From: Bacteroidota bacterium
GTDB lineage: Bacteria > Bacteroidota > Bacteroidia > Bacteroidales > VadinHA17
Assembly: GCA_029552825.1 (NCBI GenBank)
Contig: JAKPDL010000008.1
Span: 1 to 64,000 of the forward strand
DNA length: 64,000 nucleotides
Reading direction: 5' to 3'
The notes beneath the pieces were generated by a model that worked only from the letters and a program-made list of their open reading frames with translations, had not been told where the DNA came from and made no database searches. The translations under genes and the position numbers were made by a program. How positions within the stretch are numbered: the first letter of the stretch is position 1; each line of letters starts with the position of its first letter. Below, one piece after another: positions 3,590-61,758 of the stretch.

Positions 3590-4714
3590 ATGAAAGCGAT
3601 ACAGATGGCCGATTTACGGGCACAGTATGAGAGACTCAAACCGGAGATAGATAAAGCCATAAATGAAGTGCTACTTTCAACGAATTTTGTCAAAGGGCCG
3701 GAAATAAAAAAGTTTGAAGATGAACTGGCTCAATACCTTGGTGCAAAGCATGTAATATCATGCGGCAACGGAACAGATGCACTGCAGATCGCTTACATGG
3801 CACTTGGCCTCAAACCGGGTGATGAAATCATAACTACAAGCTTCACCTTTATTGCCACAGTAGAAACAATGGCGCTTCTAGGACTGAAGCCTGTATTTGC
3901 CGATGTTGACGAAAAGACCTTTAATATTTCACCTGCTGAAATCAGAAAAAGACTCACCCCCTCAACTCGTGCTATAGTTCCGGTGCATCTTTTCGGGCAA
4001 TGTGCCGATATGGAAGAAATTTTAAGAATTGCAGAAGAAAATAGTCTTTACGTTATTGAGGATACAGCTCAGGCTACAGGCGCTGAATTCATCTTCAGCG
4101 ACGGAAAAAGAAAAAAAGCAGGAACGATGGGCATAGCAGGTACAACTTCTTTTTTTCCTTCAAAAAACCTTGCATGCTATGGCGATGGCGGTGCAATTTT
4201 TACTGATGATGATGAGCTTGCCCGTAAAATGAGAAGTATTGCAAATCATGGGATGCAGGAAAGATATCATTACGAATGCATTGGAGTCAACTCACGACTT
4301 GATACCATTCAGGCCGTCATACTCCGCGTAAAGCTTAAATACCTCGATAGTTTCAATGAAGCACGGCAAAAGGCCGCTTTATTTTATGATGAAGCTTTTG
4401 CCAGCTGCCCGGAAATAATTATACCCGGCAGAACAGAAAACTCAACACATATATTCCATCAGTATACCATACGAGTTCTCAACGGAAAAAGAGATCTTCT
4501 GAAAAAACATCTGCAGTCGAGGAATATCCCGACAATGATATATTACCCCCTTCCTATACATATGCAGAAAGCCTACAGATACCTGGGATGGAATGAGGGA
4601 GATCTGCCTGTAACCGAACAGCTTTGCAAAGAAGTGCTCTCCCTGCCTATATGTCCAGAAATTGAAAGGGAACAGCTTGAATACATTGCAAAATCTGTTC
4701 TTGAATTCTTTTAG
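3590..4714 (+). CDS. wbpE: DegT/DnrJ/EryC1-family sugar aminotransferase (WbpE/WlbC/PorR-like)
   Basis: This is a PLP-dependent transaminase that should aminate the C3 keto group of a UDP-2-acetamido-3-keto-glucuronic acid. The 374 residues show the family hallmarks: substrate-loop start VKGPEIKKFE, GNGTDAL, Asp158 in IEDTAQ (pyridine-nitrogen contact) and the Schiff-base Lys192 in FFPSKNLACYGDGG. It opens a tight operon with a WbpD-like acetyltransferase, a WbpB-like dehydrogenase and a nucleotide-sugar dehydrogenase, which is the gene set of the WbpA-B-E-D pathway. PorR of Porphyromonas gingivalis is a WbpE-type enzyme needed for anionic polysaccharide. The family is certain; the exact substrate is inferred from context. 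Confidence 0.9.
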   Translation: MKAIQMADLRAQYERLKPEIDKAINEVLLSTNFVKGPEIKKFEDELAQYLGAKHVISCGNGTDALQIAYMALGLKPGDEIITTSFTFIATVETMALLGLKPVFADVDEKTFNISPAEIRKRLTPSTRAIVPVHLFGQCADMEEILRIAEENSLYVIEDTAQATGAEFIFSDGKRKKAGTMGIAGTTSFFPSKNLACYGDGGAIFTDDDELARKMRSIANHGMQERYHYECIGVNSRLDTIQAVILRVKLKYLDSFNEARQKAALFYDEAFASCPEIIIPGRTENSTHIFHQYTIRVLNGKRDLLKKHLQSRNIPTMIYYPLPIHMQKAYRYLGWNEGDLPVTEQLCKEVLSLPICPEIEREQLEYIAKSVLEFF

Positions 4715-4741
4715 TTTTTGATTGTAAATAAAAACAATAAT

Positions 4742-5320
4742 ATGGAAAAAGAATATTTTGCCCATGAAACAGCAGTAATTGACGAAGGTTGTAAAATCGG
4801 AAAAGGAACGAAAATATGGCATTTCAGCCATATTATGACAGGATGTGAAATTGGAGAAGGATGTAACCTTGGTCAGAATGTGGTCGTTTCACCGGGAGTA
4901 AAACTTGGAAAAAATGTAAAGGTCCAGAATAACGTATCAATTTATACGGGTGTTATTTGTGAGGATGATGTTTTCCTTGGGCCCTCAATGGTCTTTACCA
5001 ATATCATCAATCCGAGAAGCGCCATTGTAAGGAGGGATAAATATGTAACCACAATTGTTGAGAAAGGTGCCACAATAGGAGCCAATGCCACTATCATCTG
5101 TGGTAACCGCATCGGCCGTTATGCTTTTGTTGGAGCCGGAGCTGTTGTAACAAAAGACGTAAAGCCTTATGCTCTTGTGGTAGGCAATCCGGCCAGGCAA
5201 ATAGGATGGATGAGCGAATACGGTCACCGTCTTAACTTTGATGAAAATGGCATTGCAGTATGCCCGGAAAGCGGTGAAAAGTATAAGCTTGAAAATGGAA
5301 ACGTTTCTAAAATTTGTTAG
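4742..5320 (+). CDS. wbpD: UDP-sugar N-acetyltransferase (WbpD/WlbB-like, left-handed beta-helix)
   Basis: The protein has 192 residues from the ATG at 4742; a TTG at 4718 is in frame but less likely. Almost the whole chain is built of hexapeptide repeats (such as [12 protein letters not shown] and [20 protein letters not shown]), the LbH fold of acetyl-CoA-dependent acyltransferases. The N-terminus and the FTNIINPRS / [13 protein letters not shown] stretch are typical of WbpD/WlbB, which acetylates the 3-amino group of UDP-GlcNAc3NA. It lies 27 bases after the aminotransferase that would supply this substrate and 26 bases before the WbpB-like gene. Some relatives transfer acyl groups other than acetyl, so donor specificity is open. 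Confidence 0.9.
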
Positions 5321-57110: not shown

Positions 57111-58286
57111 CTACTTACTTATAAGCCTGAATAACTTACCAACACGAAGGGGATAATAAAGCAATGCTTTAAGTGTATTATTTACACCATATCTGACCTT
57201 CATGAAAGTCAGAGAAGGAAAGATGTCACCTAAAACAAACAGAATCTTGCGGTGTATACCCGGAATGTCACGTATCATCCTCCGGTATACCTTCCCGGGA
57301 TTAACAGGTTTATTTCCTTTCGGACTTTTTAAAAAGAAAATAAATCTGTTTATAGAATCAGGATTGAACCTCCTGCTTGTAAATTCATTCAGCCAATCGG
57401 GAAATTCAAGACCCCATAAATCTCTTAAAGGCTCAAGCTTCCATGCAAGAATTTTTGTCAAACCTGCTTCTTTTGCATCCTCAAGAAGCTTATACCTGAA
57501 TATCTCACTCCCATATTTTTCCGCCATCAAAACAAGATCCGCATAAAGCCTGAGTTGTGATTCGTCGTTCAGCTCGTGAAAATAAAGATGCCTTACGAGA
57601 TAAAGGAAGAAAAGCTCAGGGTCCGGGACATAAGCTGTTTCCCGTTCGAGTCTTATCTCCCTTGCCGTCTCAATTACTTTTGAGGTCAAATTATTCTTCT
57701 TACCCGGGAAAAGCTCAAGGTGGATATCAACCGAGAGGCCATTTTTCATAAGTGTAGGGAGATGTTTTCCCGTCCATTCCATTATAGGTTTATGAAAACC
57801 CGATTTTACAGGCAACGAATCATAGCCGTTATGCAGAAGAATATCTCTTGCTTTCAGGAAATCGCGCCTGCTTATCAGCAGGTCTATATCAGTCATCTGG
57901 CGCAGGCCTGAGTTTCCGTATAAAGTCAGTTCAAGGGCAAGACCTTTAAGAAGAACAACTTTTATACCTGCCCTGTTAAGCAAAGATATTACTTCTTCAG
58001 CTCCAGTCAGATGAAAGGCATTTCTGGTAACGCTTAACAGAAGTGAAGAATGGAGCACAGAGGCATTCTTTTCAGGAAGATAGTTCAACAGTTCAAGCTT
58101 TTCAAGATTGTGCCACACAAGTGCAGCTATTCCATGCTCCATAGCAAGATTCGTGAAATAATCCCAGTCACTCGTTAATCTAACAAGTTCACTAATTCTG
58201 CCACGAAGTTTCTCATCAAATGAAAGGCGGCAAAGACCTATGAGCAATATTTCCTCATCCCTTATTTCAAGAAGTCTGTTCCCCAT
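57111..58286 (-). CDS. Nucleotidyltransferase-family protein (NTP_transf_5-like), last gene of the PqqD/HprK module
   Basis: The 391 residues carry a minimal nucleotidyltransferase core, KGLALELTLYGNSGLRQMTDIDLLI, with Lys114-Gly115, Arg129, Asp133 and Asp135 as candidate catalytic residues. This is the pattern of the uncharacterised nucleotidyltransferase family PF14907, often found beside PqqD-like proteins and HPr-kinase-like kinases. The C-terminal 150 residues are helical and basic. Its ATG overlaps the ABC transporter stop by 20 bases, so the genes are translationally linked. The nucleotide and the target are unknown. Confidence 0.82.
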   Translation of the reverse strand: MGNRLLEIRDEEILLIGLCRLSFDEKLRGRISELVRLTSDWDYFTNLAMEHGIAALVWHNLEKLELLNYLPEKNASVLHSSLLLSVTRNAFHLTGAEEVISLLNRAGIKVVLLKGLALELTLYGNSGLRQMTDIDLLISRRDFLKARDILLHNGYDSLPVKSGFHKPIMEWTGKHLPTLMKNGLSVDIHLELFPGKKNNLTSKVIETAREIRLERETAYVPDPELFFLYLVRHLYFHELNDESQLRLYADLVLMAEKYGSEIFRYKLLEDAKEAGLTKILAWKLEPLRDLWGLEFPDWLNEFTSRRFNPDSINRFIFFLKSPKGNKPVNPGKVYRRMIRDIPGIHRKILFVLGDIFPSLTFMKVRYGVNNTLKALLYYPLRVGKLFRLISK

Positions 58287-60066
58287 CCCCTAGCATATTT
58301 TTCTGCCTTGTATACATATTATAATACAATCCCTTTTTCATCATCAATTCAGTGTGTGTTCCATTTTCTGCTATTCTGCCGCCTTCCAGGACAACTACCC
58401 TGTCGGCTAGTCTGACACTGGTGAAGCGGTGGCTTATAAGCAGCACGGTCTGCCCTTTGACTATTTCTCTGAAACGGCTGAAAATTTCATATTCCGATTC
58501 CGAATCAATAGCACTCGAAGGCTCATCGAGTATCATCACTGATGCATCACGATAAATGGTCCGGGCCAGAGCAATCTTCTGCCATTCACCCCAGCTCAAT
58601 TCACGGCTCTCGTCAAACAGAGGTCCAATCTGTGTATCATAACCTCCGGGCAGTGATTCAATCAATGAGTGTATACCTGCCGACATTGCAGCAAGCTTCA
58701 TCCTTTCCTCCTGCCTCCCTGCTTCTATGTTTCCAAGTAAAATGTTCTCCCCCGCGCTCAAATTGTACAGCATGAAATCCTGAAAAAGTACCGAAAACTG
58801 TTTTCTGTATTCCTCCGGCTTAAAATTCCTTATATTTTTTCCGTCAAAAAATACAGCCCCACTATCAGGGTCGTAGAGTCTGCAAAGTATTCGCACCAGA
58901 GTACTTTTACCGGAGCCATTCGAACCAACAAGCGCAACAATCTCCCCCTTCTTTAGTGTCAGATTGACATCTTTCAGCGCCGGAGAATTATTACCGGGAT
59001 ATGTAAAAGTTACATTTTCAAATCTTATTTCCTTTTTAAGCGGAGTTACTTCAGAAACCGGCTCATCTTCTTTTATTTTTTCTTTCAGCATCAAAAATTC
59101 AAAGATGTCACCGGTAAACAATGAATCTTCATAAAGACCCGCTACCGAACTCAGGATATCTCTTATATATATCAACCCCTGTCTGAAAGCCAGTATGAGC
59201 ATTGCCATATTTCCGAGCGTAATTTCCCCGCTTATCGTCTGACGTGCAATAACATAAAGCACGATAAAAAGTGCTGATGCCTTAATTACGCCTGAAACTG
59301 TTTCGATAGCAGTTCTCTTGCGTAAAATGTCTATTTCTTTTTCTTTATATTGTCTGAACGACTCTTTGAAATGAGAGATAAAATAATCACCGAGTCCAAA
59401 TAGCCTTATTTCCCTCGATGGCCGGTCTCCTGTTAGCAACCAGTTGAAATATCCTGCTTTCCTCTCCTCGGGCGTTAGTTCCTTTCTAAAGTAATAAAGA
59501 ACTGAAGCATAATGTAGCCTCATCCATATGCCTGGAATATTTACTACTACAAGCAGCAGGGCTATCCACCAGTTCAAAGTAAAGAGAAGGCTGGCCATTA
59601 GAATAAGTGAAATAATCCCCCTGAACAGAGCAACGAAGTTGTTGAGTATGTTATTCGGTCGCCATGTAGCTTCTCTGACTGCCCTCGACAATTTATCAAA
59701 ATAAGAAGGATTTTCGAAATTAATCAGATCCAGAGCTGTGGCTTTTGAATGCAAAAGCTTATACATGTATTCCTCAAGACGGTACGACTGCTTTTTCCTT
59801 ATATAATTCCCTATTTCTGACGACATCTCATCAATCAAAAATACAACTATAACAGCTGTAATTGAATAGACAATTCGGGCAGTAGATACCTCTCCGCCTG
59901 ATGAAACACCCTGGGTTATCGTATCAATCAGGCTTCTTATGAGGAACAGCAGTACAAGTGGAATAAAACTTCTGAGCAAAGAGACTGCAACATTTGCAGC
60001 AGTCCACCCCGGAGCACTCTCTCTTACAAGCTTTACTGACTCAAAAAGAAGTCTTAAATTTTTCAT
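58267..60066 (-). CDS. ABC exporter (fused membrane and ATPase domains) with altered signature motif
   Basis: The 599 residues have a membrane domain (helices at about 25-45, 62-80, 140-185, 258-300) and a nucleotide-binding domain from about 345. Walker A is GSNGSGKST at 381-389, Walker B VMILDE at 510-515, H-loop His in LLISHRFTS. The signature reads LSWGEWQKIALAR at 490-502, with Trp492 where the first Gly of LSGGE is expected. The WQKIALAR form is usual in exporters of ribosomal peptide clusters. No peptidase C39 domain is present at the N-terminus. It lies 24 bases after the protease gene. Substrate unknown. Confidence 0.88.
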   Translation of the reverse strand: MKNLRLLFESVKLVRESAPGWTAANVAVSLLRSFIPLVLLFLIRSLIDTITQGVSSGGEVSTARIVYSITAVIVVFLIDEMSSEIGNYIRKKQSYRLEEYMYKLLHSKATALDLINFENPSYFDKLSRAVREATWRPNNILNNFVALFRGIISLILMASLLFTLNWWIALLLVVVNIPGIWMRLHYASVLYYFRKELTPEERKAGYFNWLLTGDRPSREIRLFGLGDYFISHFKESFRQYKEKEIDILRKRTAIETVSGVIKASALFIVLYVIARQTISGEITLGNMAMLILAFRQGLIYIRDILSSVAGLYEDSLFTGDIFEFLMLKEKIKEDEPVSEVTPLKKEIRFENVTFTYPGNNSPALKDVNLTLKKGEIVALVGSNGSGKSTLVRILCRLYDPDSGAVFFDGKNIRNFKPEEYRKQFSVLFQDFMLYNLSAGENILLGNIEAGRQEERMKLAAMSAGIHSLIESLPGGYDTQIGPLFDESRELSWGEWQKIALARTIYRDASVMILDEPSSAIDSESEYEIFSRFREIVKGQTVLLISHRFTSVRLADRVVVLEGGRIAENGTHTELMMKKGLYYNMYTRQKNMLGDGEQTS

Positions 60067-60090
60067 CAGGCCAGATGTCAGTTTATTATT

Positions 60091-60540
60091 TTATTTTTTC
60101 AGATTCTTGAATCTGCCGGCAATATGTATCATAATCACTCTCCAACGGTTAAAGAAATAATTTGGCTTCTTTGAAAATTCAGCAGGCAACCGGGCAAAAC
60201 CTTCCAACCCGGTGACTCTGCCGGGTATCATATCGATTGTTACAGGTGCATCAGGGAAAGGATTGCTGTCGCCACGTGCAATATATTTCTTTTTTCCTCC
60301 CTCGTCAATAATTTCAACAATCCGGTGCACCACTATTCCCTTGTCCTTATTTATTGCAACAATTTCGCCTTTCTGAGGCAGACCTTTTAATCTGATAGGT
60401 TCAATCATGATTACCATTCCAGGTTTTATGGTGGGATACATGCTGTATCCGTGAGCTTTGATCCTTATTGTCTTCCCCTCCGAAAGGAGCGAAACGCTTA
60501 TGTTCCTTAATTCATCTATATGTTTTCTGTGAATGCTCAT
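60091..60540 (-). CDS. S24/S26-family signal-peptidase-like serine protease
   Basis: The 149 residues contain the signal-peptidase signature GYSMYPTIKPG with nucleophile Ser33, then a second motif GIVVHRIV with His72 where bacterial SPase I has Lys, and RGDSN with Asp91. Ser-His-Asp is the arrangement of archaeal and ER-type (SipW-like) peptidases. There is no clear N-terminal anchor helix, and the only mildly hydrophobic stretch is at the C-terminus (VIMIHIAGRF), so it may be membrane-associated loosely or act in the cytoplasm. Overlaps the kinase gene by 29 bases. Its role in cleaving an exported peptide is inferred. Confidence 0.78.
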   Translation of the reverse strand: MSIHRKHIDELRNISVSLLSEGKTIRIKAHGYSMYPTIKPGMVIMIEPIRLKGLPQKGEIVAINKDKGIVVHRIVEIIDEGGKKKYIARGDSNPFPDAPVTIDMIPGRVTGLEGFARLPAEFSKKPNYFFNRWRVIMIHIAGRFKNLKK

Positions 60541-61423
60541 GGTCCAGTATAAAATTAATTGCTGAAGGTTCAGGTTTGAAATAAAACCGGAAAACCCTGA
60601 TTTTTTCGCACATATCTGTTATAGCGTTAACAAGATTACCAGTTATATTCTTGTCCCAGTTGTGCTGAATACAGTTTGCAAGCAGCTGGCTCACTGCCTG
60701 TACACCGCTCAATGGCTCAATTCTATTTTCCATACCGTGCTCAATTAGAAATATTGCGCTGAGCGGTGCTTCAAGAGGTTTGTCATTATTATATACAGGA
60801 GTATTATAGAAACGGTACTCACCATTCATCTTTCTGATTATAAGTCTGTCGTCGTGGATCACCCTGGCGCCGGCATCATGCCACAAACGTGCAATTGTTG
60901 ATTTTCCTTTCCCCGACACCCCGCTGAAAATATAGCCTCTATCTTCAAAACCGACTCCTGAAGCATGAATCATGATATCGTTGCTTATTACAGTAAGATA
61001 ATAAAGCAGAAGTCCGTCGAGCGGATAAGCCAGCGGATCAATCTTCCCTCCCTTACCTTCAATCCAGAGCTCCCAGACATCCGACTGCAGCGAAAAAATA
61101 AGAGTACCTCTATCCTGTGACTCTTCAAGAGGGAATATGGTACAGATGTAGAGCCCCCCCTCTTTATCACGGTAAACATCCCAGAACTCCTCACTCCTTA
61201 TAAAGGTTTTTCCCTCTCTCTCCCCAACAAAAGGAGCATGAAAAACCCTTTCTGCTCCAGCAGGCAGAATAAATTGTCCGGTGTGAACTCTTATCAAAAT
61301 ATCATGTTTATTACTCTGCACCCGACTTCCTTCAAATCTTGCCGAAGGCCCAAGGAGGGGTCCGCCAGGTGCAGATTTTACCTTTATATTATATCCTGCA
61401 ATATTCAGGCAGTATTCTCTCAT
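60512..61423 (-). CDS. HPr-kinase-like serine kinase (C-terminal P-loop domain)
   Basis: The 303 residues end with a P-loop domain like the HprK/P C-terminus: MIHASGV at 151-157, Walker A GVSGKGKST at 168-176 and the acidic HDD at 190-192. The normal HprK N-terminal sensor domain is replaced by an unrelated 140-residue region with beta-rich character. Such kinases accompany PqqD-like proteins in several maturation clusters (the HprK-related kinase families) and in some lasso-peptide clusters. It lies 47 bases after the PqqD-like gene. The phosphorylation target is unknown. Confidence 0.82.
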   Translation of the reverse strand: MREYCLNIAGYNIKVKSAPGGPLLGPSARFEGSRVQSNKHDILIRVHTGQFILPAGAERVFHAPFVGEREGKTFIRSEEFWDVYRDKEGGLYICTIFPLEESQDRGTLIFSLQSDVWELWIEGKGGKIDPLAYPLDGLLLYYLTVISNDIMIHASGVGFEDRGYIFSGVSGKGKSTIARLWHDAGARVIHDDRLIIRKMNGEYRFYNTPVYNNDKPLEAPLSAIFLIEHGMENRIEPLSGVQAVSQLLANCIQHNWDKNITGNLVNAITDMCEKIRVFRFYFKPEPSAINFILDHEHSQKTYR

Positions 61424-61470
61424 TTACAATTTATTGTGTCACATAAGAATCCGGGAAGAAATCTAAATTC

Positions 61471-61758
61471 TCACATTTTGATGATCAGATATTCTTTCAT
61501 CGTGCTCAAAAAACCCAGTACATCTTTAGTTGCAGTATCTCTGTCGATTTCAAATTCGTCCACGACAAGCCGGATAATCTCTTCAACACTTTTTTCGCCG
61601 TCAATCTGTTCCCATATGAAAGCCCCTGTTTCATTAAGGGTGAATATACTGTCCATATCTGCAATATTGTCTGTTACCGGGACAATAATATATTCATTTC
61701 CAGTCTTGCGTGTCACAACCGATGAAGAACGGGAAGGTATCTGATTAAGTAATTCCAT
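61471..61758 (-). CDS. PqqD-family peptide-binding chaperone (RRE-like)
   Basis: The 95 residues match PqqD/RiPP-recognition-element proteins: LNQIPSRSSSVVTRKTGNEYIIV as the beta-hairpin, FTLNETGAFIWEQIDGEKSVEEIIRLVVDEFEI as the diagnostic FxLNxtgaxIWexidG plus helices, and a final helix TKDVLGFLSTMKEYLI. PqqD proteins bind a peptide substrate and present it to a modifying enzyme. It is the first gene of the five-gene minus-strand operon and is divergent from rnr. No precursor peptide is found between it and its neighbours. Confidence 0.9.
   Translation of the reverse strand: MELLNQIPSRSSSVVTRKTGNEYIIVPVTDNIADMDSIFTLNETGAFIWEQIDGEKSVEEIIRLVVDEFEIDRDTATKDVLGFLSTMKEYLIIKM

Follow-up and report, generated by a model that had tools for sequence, protein, structure and literature searches.

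A linear polyphosphorylated peptide-like operon in Bacteroidota with a candidate precursor encoded behind a type IX secretion cargo gene

Introduction

Linear polyphosphorylated peptides (LPPs) are a family of ribosomally synthesized and post-translationally modified peptides (RiPPs) published in May 2026 (PMC13381572). According to the main text of that article, the core gene set comprises a discrete RiPP recognition element (RRE), an HprK-like kinase, a SipW-type (SpI-like) peptidase, an MsbA-like transporter and an NTP transferase. The precursors follow the consensus YxxPxVLxHQxIxFETxxS, with a Thr at position 15 (Y+15) and the phosphorylated Ser at position 18 (Y+18) counted from the Tyr. 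LppK adds one to four phosphates to core residue S3, the SipW-type LppS cleaves the leader with the aid of the RRE protein LppB, and deletion of lppN is described as causing no detectable change. LPPs are stated there to be restricted to Bacillota, with a patchy, conflict-like distribution in Bacilli and an unknown role. Here we describe a five-gene operon on the minus strand at positions 57,111 to 61,758 of a 64,000-nucleotide stretch of contig JAKPDL010000008.1 (hereafter the window; assembly GCA_029552825.1), from a member of the Bacteroidales in the phylum Bacteroidota.

Comparable enzymes occur in clusters for phosphorylated lasso peptides. In the bsf cluster, the B1 protein speeds phosphorylation of Ser3, and the phospho-Ser of the precursor BsfA lies at Y+19 (PMC10368454); in the pseudomycoidin cluster, PsmN leads to the presence of hexoses on the phosphorylated Ser (PMC9266682). 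We consider it likely that the window operon encodes LPP-type machinery for peptide maturation and export, and that it acts on a 58-residue precursor whose gene lies on a different contig (C168), behind a gene for a cargo protein of the type IX secretion system (T9SS).

Results

The operon encodes the LPP core families

A cluster of the LPP kind is expected to encode the five core families, and all five are present in the window, although the kinase and MsbA assignments lie under curated sequence cut-offs. The layout given in the initial annotation, five genes on one strand, is correct: gaps of 47 and 24 bases separate the PqqD-like gene from the kinase gene and the peptidase gene from the exporter gene, and overlaps of 29 and 20 bases join the kinase to the peptidase gene and the exporter to the nucleotidyltransferase gene.

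The leading gene (61471..61758) encodes a 95-residue PqqD-like stand-alone RRE, the counterpart of LppB and of lasso B1 proteins and a putative adapter for the leader. The RRE-type pattern read from it earlier is borne out by its match to PF05402 (E 2.8e-19; 69.6 bits against a cut-off of 23.4), and it is the sole PqqD protein over the cut-off in its genome. In a PDB sequence search, its nearest solved relatives were lasso B1 proteins (9x90, E 1.4e-7; TbiB1, E 2.6e-5).

Next comes a 303-residue HprK-like protein (60512..61423), the counterpart of LppK and BsfK, which would phosphorylate a Ser or Thr of the precursor. It does not score as an HPr kinase/phosphorylase proper (TIGR00679, 12.4 of 240 bits; PF07475, 14.1 of 33.3 bits) and also stays under the curated cut-offs of TIGR04355 and TIGR04352 (29.6 and 23.5 of 200 bits). 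A PDB comparison of its predicted structure (mean predicted local distance difference test score 94.1) gave matches at low TM-scores to phosphoenolpyruvate carboxykinase (best E 6e-7) and to HprK (best E 2e-5); going by this model, the fold is related to that of HPr kinase/phosphorylase and the family is a different one. Residues H153, K174, D191 and D192 are unchanged in 14 relatives, and in a wider alignment of 28 sequences the first three are invariant and D192 is conserved in at least 90%. These residues correspond to the His-Lys-Asp-Asp set known from lasso-tailoring kinases (PMC9266682).

The candidate leader peptidase (60091..60540; 149 residues) is a SipW-type S26 serine peptidase and the counterpart of LppS. 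It exceeds the cut-offs of both PF00717 (25.1 against 23.3 bits) and TIGR02228, the archaeal-type signal peptidase family (62.5 against 51.85 bits). Its catalytic S33, H72 and D91, unchanged across 11 and across 22 aligned sequences, match S29, H68 and D93 of LppS (PMC13381572). Because the protein has no clear transmembrane stretch (maximum mean hydropathy over 19-residue windows, 1.01), it may work in the cytosol.

The 599-residue exporter of the ATP-binding cassette (ABC) type (58267..60066), the counterpart of LppD, would export the modified peptide. Both its ABC_tran and ABC_membrane domains exceed their cut-offs, and its top NCBIfam match is TIGR02203 MsbA (E 5e-88; 296 bits, under the cut-off of 602). 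In all seven long ABC proteins scanned from related loci, one of which ends at the end of its locus, an S24/S26 domain is joined to the exporter N-terminus (L192:1716-3956, L187:6689-8938, L185:6863-9124, L189:6431-8776, L060:7095-9377, L065:1176-3593 and L191:6983-8506); such a fusion would couple trimming with export. The last gene (57111..58286) encodes a 391-residue NTP_transf_5 nucleotidyltransferase (PF14907, E 4.7e-50; 170.9 bits against a cut-off of 31.2), the counterpart of LppN, PsmN and BsfN, which might act on the phosphopeptide.

Since this enzyme set is the LPP core described in PMC13381572, the combination is not new, and we dropped the reading of an undescribed gene combination. 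The initial annotation had called it unusual; all of its members but the peptidase also occur in bsf lasso clusters (PMC10368454).

The operon is conserved at a fixed site in its genus

The HprK-like protein was found in 22 of 25 sampled genomes of the window's genus, its own included, and in 24 of 41 over the whole search. In 20 of the 22 genus loci fetched, a divergent rnr gene lies next to the PqqD-like gene, with 1.7-2.8 kb between them in three; the remaining two loci end at a contig end. The grouping of the genes thus exceeds chance.

Across 295 genomes of the order, a kinase profile matched 71 at E 1e-6 and 43 at E 1e-20 or better (hereafter strong HprK); the other 28 are assumed to carry ordinary HprK or other kinases, and from these one locus (L096) was fetched. 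In 395 genomes of the phylum, 13 matched at E 1e-15. The 40 order loci examined (L057-L096, of which L057 comes from the window's genus) include PqqD in 32, S26 in 35, some of them fused to the ABC protein, and the nucleotidyltransferase in 14. A scan of named genomes yielded 62 loci, 52 with Bacteroidota-type names, chiefly uncultured Bacteroidales; 58 of them have PqqD and 57 have S26, while a nucleotidyltransferase was found in 29 and the peptide described below in two. In two genomes of another class (G339 and G429), PqqD and S26 adjoin the kinase.

Several loci show insertions or weaker variants. A cassette of about 3.4 kb, with a helix-turn-helix protein and three further open reading frames (ORFs), splits the operon of genome G136 between the HprK-like and S26 genes (L057:9616-13042), and two named loci (L142 and L159) have a gap of about this width at the same junction. 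Short repeats and ORFs that we take to be of the GxxExxY type are inserted in operon gaps of congeners (L043:1355-1783, and L045 between PqqD and HprK), which explains part of the variation in gap length. Weaker PqqD and HprK-like pairs, some also with S26 and the nucleotidyltransferase, occur in records named Anaerolineae, Omnitrophota, Acidiferrales and Firestonebacteria (L194-L201).

A precursor family with a fixed register

RiPP enzymes are expected to act on a ribosomal precursor with a leader. No small ORF with leader features had been noticed in the operon gaps; a motif scan for leader-like YxxP ORFs was likewise empty over the whole window, and a precursor inside the window was therefore rejected. 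Judged by eye, the operon gaps of the genus hold inserts only and no conserved small ORF. In 13 of the 40 order loci, a small YxxP ORF does lie beside HprK (L059, L061-L064, L067, L069 and L071-L076). Twelve of these are located between PqqD and HprK; the one in L067, where no PqqD was found, is just before HprK. They are 37 to 76 residues long, several start with TTG or GTG, and they share K/R-Y-x-x-P, a D at Y+11, the motif I-S-[L/M]-[V/I]-M-x-[S/T] and a tail rich in P, G and D.

A profile built from ten YxxP peptides, none of them from the window's genus, found one homologue in the window's own genome (E 9.3e-11), on another contig (G000:C168:638-814), and matched congeners as well. The earlier suggestion that the substrate is encoded elsewhere agrees with this; in relatives, the family sits inside the operon. 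The C168 gene encodes a 58-residue peptide:

MKKAKKYKKPEITKVELDRTISLIMMTVTPPNPPPRPRGGGKGNDSPFQSPFGDKPFG

The register is exact in 55 of 56 peptides collected, with P+3, D+11 and Ser/Thr+20 counted from the Tyr. Individual positions were conserved as follows: Y in 53, P+3 in 55, I/V/L+5 in 50, D+11 in 55, I+14 in 46, S+15 in 45 and Ser/Thr+20 in 55, the last being the sole invariant hydroxyl residue. When the peptide genes of the genus are compared, third codon positions account for 1102 of the 1995 base differences, and of the 1300 codons that differ, 646 are synonymous; this third-position excess, together with the unchanged residues, fits a translated, constrained peptide gene. No match to Pfam was found among five peptides. 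In a scan of 27 peptides against NCBIfam, hits to four families came from one or two peptides each (E 0.027-0.31), none of them convincing, and a PDB search of the peptide returned nothing useful. The peptide is thus not an already described family in Pfam or NCBIfam.

A YxxP-type leader motif is known to bind stand-alone RREs (PMC13381572). The initial annotation had left room for a substrate that is not a classical RiPP; with a ribosomal precursor, a YxxP leader and a stand-alone RRE, the system does look, from its sequences, like a RiPP system, one that lacks a cyclase in the locus.

The leader register is also lasso-like, which raises the alternative that the operon is part of a lasso cluster like those of paeninodin and bsf, with the genes for the cyclase C and the leader peptidase B2 elsewhere in the genome. 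The bsf cluster has the same B1, kinase, exporter and nucleotidyltransferase (PMC10368454), the closest solved relatives of the PqqD-like protein are lasso B1 proteins, and one of the 27 precursors weakly matches the PadeA lasso family (E 0.042). However, only the leader part of the lasso pattern is present: at Y+17, where a lasso core would begin (with Gly, as in bsf), 40 of 55 peptides have V or I, and there is no fixed Asp or Glu at core positions 7-9. The genome's one match to the B2 family PF13471 reaches 15.2 bits against a cut-off of 26 (best E 0.04), and the S26 peptidase stands in the place of B2. No cyclase gene was noticed on reading the fetched neighbourhoods, although no genome-wide cyclase search was made. 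We regard the lasso alternative as a very faint possibility.

Some genomes contain several peptides per module, with five in G109. Tandem to an intact copy in locus L219 (G243:C3), a second precursor copy at 4667-4792 has internal stops and is apparently degenerate, which suggests that precursor copies turn over. The same precursor type is found directly before PqqD-HprK-S26 in a metagenome-assembled genome named Flavobacteriales, outside Bacteroidales (JAIOYP010000049.1; L186:295-441). Other families of the order have more distant small YxxP ORFs close to their PqqD/HprK/S26 modules (L089:10343-10507, L093:13708-13893 and L094:18830-19069), that of L093 inside an apparent polysaccharide locus; they possibly represent a second precursor class.

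Many exporter-bearing RiPPs are antimicrobials, and the peptide could likewise be a secreted antimicrobial, with its T9SS neighbour a chance or defensive partner. The patchy, conflict-like distribution of LPPs in Bacilli is in line with such a role (PMC13381572); no immunity-gene search of its own was made. The C-terminus PF.SPFGDKPF, however, is near-invariant in 9 of 11 genus peptides, and this constancy, together with the fixed site beside rnr, favours a stable role. An antimicrobial function is accordingly judged unlikely.

Peptide and kinase tend to occur together across genomes

A dedicated substrate is expected to accompany its enzymes. In the order sample (n = 295), strong HprK was found in 23 of the 28 genomes that have the peptide and in 20 of the 267 that do not. 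Removal of the 16 genomes that had contributed to profile training left 7 of 12 against 20 of 267 (p 2e-5). Outside the order, the phylum sample (n = 395) contained two genomes with a peptide match, G339 and G429 (E 6e-5 and 1e-4), and the kinase is present in both. Two genomes also connect the nucleotidyltransferase with the precursor: in G009 and G015, a homologue adjoins a T9SS-cargo-like gene, which is followed by the precursor gene. No nucleotidyltransferase was detected in the G009 operon itself, and the G015 contig stops inside the operon.

Precursor genes mostly follow T9SS cargo genes

In the window's own genome, the C168 peptide gene stands directly behind a gene whose product matches an NCBIfam T9SS family (E 1.1e-5). 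By eye, the peptide gene follows a gene with a T9SS-cargo-like end in all 11 genus loci, including this one. We scored the T9SS sorting domain TIGR04183 at E 0.1 or better, rather than at its curated cut-off, in the neighbours of all collected peptides. With PqqD skipped, 40 of 51 upstream neighbours carried it, compared with 7 of 48 downstream neighbours (p 8e-11). The 51 upstream references derive from the 56 peptides, four of which have no upstream gene on their contig, while the L219 tandem copies share one. From 55 downstream neighbours, the control omits one duplicate, L213 (wrong frame), L125 and L229 (contig end), and L131, L138 and L218 (small ORFs), other small ORFs being kept; when all six lost neighbours are counted as positive, the worst case is 13 of 54. 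For peptides from outside profile training, the four from G339 and G429 among them, the upstream domain was found in 23 of 30. Each of the four peptide genes of this other class follows a gene with a cargo-like end at a distance of 32 to 108 bases.

Six of 11 genus loci (L126-L129, L131 and L133) have polysaccharide-type genes near the peptide (Poly_export, Wzc-like, glycosyl and sugar transferases, and a NusG-like antiterminator), and genes of this type were also seen, by eye, near the L093 and L094 modules. These genes could mean that the module acts on a surface polysaccharide, a T9SS cargo or some other target and that the YxxP ORFs are incidental; in the genus, moreover, the YxxP ORF is outside the operon and was missed in 15 of 26 genomes. 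This reading is contradicted by the YxxP ORFs inside the module in 13 loci, by their exact register, by the codon pattern in the genus and by the known RRE-binding motif, and we consider it very unlikely. The capsule loci reported around LPP clusters of Bacilli agree with the polysaccharide genes seen here (PMC13381572).

Discussion

The genes, their conservation, the precursor family, its register and its genetic linkage are direct observations, from which an LPP-type pathway may be proposed, with every enzymatic step drawn by analogy. The PqqD-like protein would grip the YxxPx[I/V/L] leader, and the HprK-like kinase, assisted by it, would phosphorylate the invariant Ser/Thr at Y+20. The nucleotidyltransferase would then attach a further group, perhaps a sugar, onto the phosphate. 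The soluble S26 peptidase would remove the leader, probably at the exporter, by a cut near Y+15 to Y+17, and the ABC protein would export a short linear peptide rich in P and G. The acceptor and cut site are placed by comparison: the phospho-Ser is at +18 in LPPs and at +19 in BsfA, and S+15 falls at the T-1 site of LPPs. The scheme of a peptide that is bound, phosphorylated or nucleotidylated, trimmed and exported had been put forward from the window alone. Its core stands, now with an LPP-matching enzyme set and a substrate family; the chemistry of the individual steps is still inferred.

Several observations weigh against the assignment of an LPP-like machine with this peptide as its substrate. 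The peptide was seen in only 11 of 26 genus genomes, many of whose assemblies are fragmented, and it was not found in G011 and G136, two well-assembled genomes with the module. In the order, 20 of 43 strong-HprK genomes have no peptide matching the profile, two of these loci (L089 and L093) holding the more distant YxxP ORFs. Conversely, 5 of 28 peptide genomes are without strong HprK; two of the five have PqqD directly before the peptide, and in G147 no PqqD was found at E 1e-3. G024 has peptide and PqqD with no kinase match. Of the 22 genus loci, 12 have the nucleotidyltransferase in the operon, and several of the rest are truncated; around the modules of G429 and G339, the 18 and 14 kb fetched yielded neither this gene nor one for an ABC protein. 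The PDB sequence search placed the PqqD-like protein no closer to 9x8z (LppB, by our guess) than to lasso B1 proteins, and LxHQxIxFET, which follows YxxPx[V/I/L] in LPPs (PMC13381572), was not found in the peptides. The T9SS neighbours are non-independent samples. T9SS genes are also common in the order; because the sortase is present in 263 of 295 genomes, a genome-level test of a peptide-sortase link is uninformative and was dropped.

Together with the T9SS protein of the adjoining gene, the product probably acts at the cell surface, although any role there is speculative. As a tentative and rather doubtful extension, the machine may make phosphorylated, perhaps glycosylated, short peptides as dedicated partners of T9SS surface proteins, with one enzyme set serving one or several cargo-peptide pairs per genome. 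At the surface, each peptide would join the cargo with which it is co-expressed and might serve, for instance, as a link to polysaccharide or as an acceptor for cargo anchoring. To our knowledge, little is known of the anchor of T9SS cargo outside Porphyromonas, and we know of no earlier link between a RiPP pathway and type IX secretion and no earlier functional clue for LPPs; if true, the proposal would supply the first of each. The pairing of precursor and T9SS cargo genes is in any case a clue to the function of LPP-like peptides. The literature searched, which included few subscription papers, contained no report that joins the module with the T9SS or places it in Bacteroidota, and the terms 'bacteroid', 'type IX' and 'T9SS' are absent from the main text of PMC13381572.

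The operon can be compared with three described systems. With the phosphorylated lasso clusters (bsf, PMC10368454; paeninodin; pseudomycoidin, PMC9266682), as far as these sources describe them, it shares B1, the His-Lys-Asp-Asp kinase, the ABC exporter and the leader register; a nucleotidyltransferase is also present in bsf and pseudomycoidin, and the phospho-Ser of bsf is near the core start. Unlike these clusters, the operon has no cyclase and no B2 in the locus, and its peptides have no Gly at the core start. Peptidase-containing ABC transporters (PCATs; PMC10885120) fuse the leader peptidase to the exporter, as in some relatives of the module, but theirs is a C39 cysteine peptidase instead of a serine S24/S26 peptidase, and the window has one gene each for peptidase and exporter. 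The fusions of a serine peptidase with an ABC protein would add to the C39 PCATs a second way of coupling leader removal to export.

The closest likeness is to the lpp cluster of Paenibacillus alginolyticus, which has the same five families (PMC13381572). The gene order, with A to N denoting the Lpp counterparts, is almost alike (B-(A)-K-S-D-N here and lppA-K-B-S-D-N in the published construct), and both systems have a YxxPx[V/I/L] leader, a Ser close to where leader and core meet, and capsule or exopolysaccharide genes nearby, while neither has a cyclase in its locus. In the precursor motif, Y, P and the hydrophobic residue at +5 are common to both, whereas the rest differs (D+11, I+14, S+15, M+18 and S/T+20 here), with the Ser/Thr at Y+20 rather than Y+18. 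The precursor is on contig C168 in the window's genome and outside the operon in the genus, in contrast to the LPP clusters, although 13 of the 40 order loci have it in the module, and some relatives carry several copies per genome. The present system further differs in that its precursor genes mostly lie behind T9SS cargo genes, its peptidase and exporter are fused in some relatives, its chromosomal site is fixed in the genus, and its hosts are Bacteroidota rather than Bacillota (PMC13381572). Because the leader motif and the in-cluster precursor set it apart, we call it an LPP-like variant rather than a member. With an LPP-like machine in Bacteroidota, at a fixed site in one genus and present in at least one class besides, the family becomes broader.

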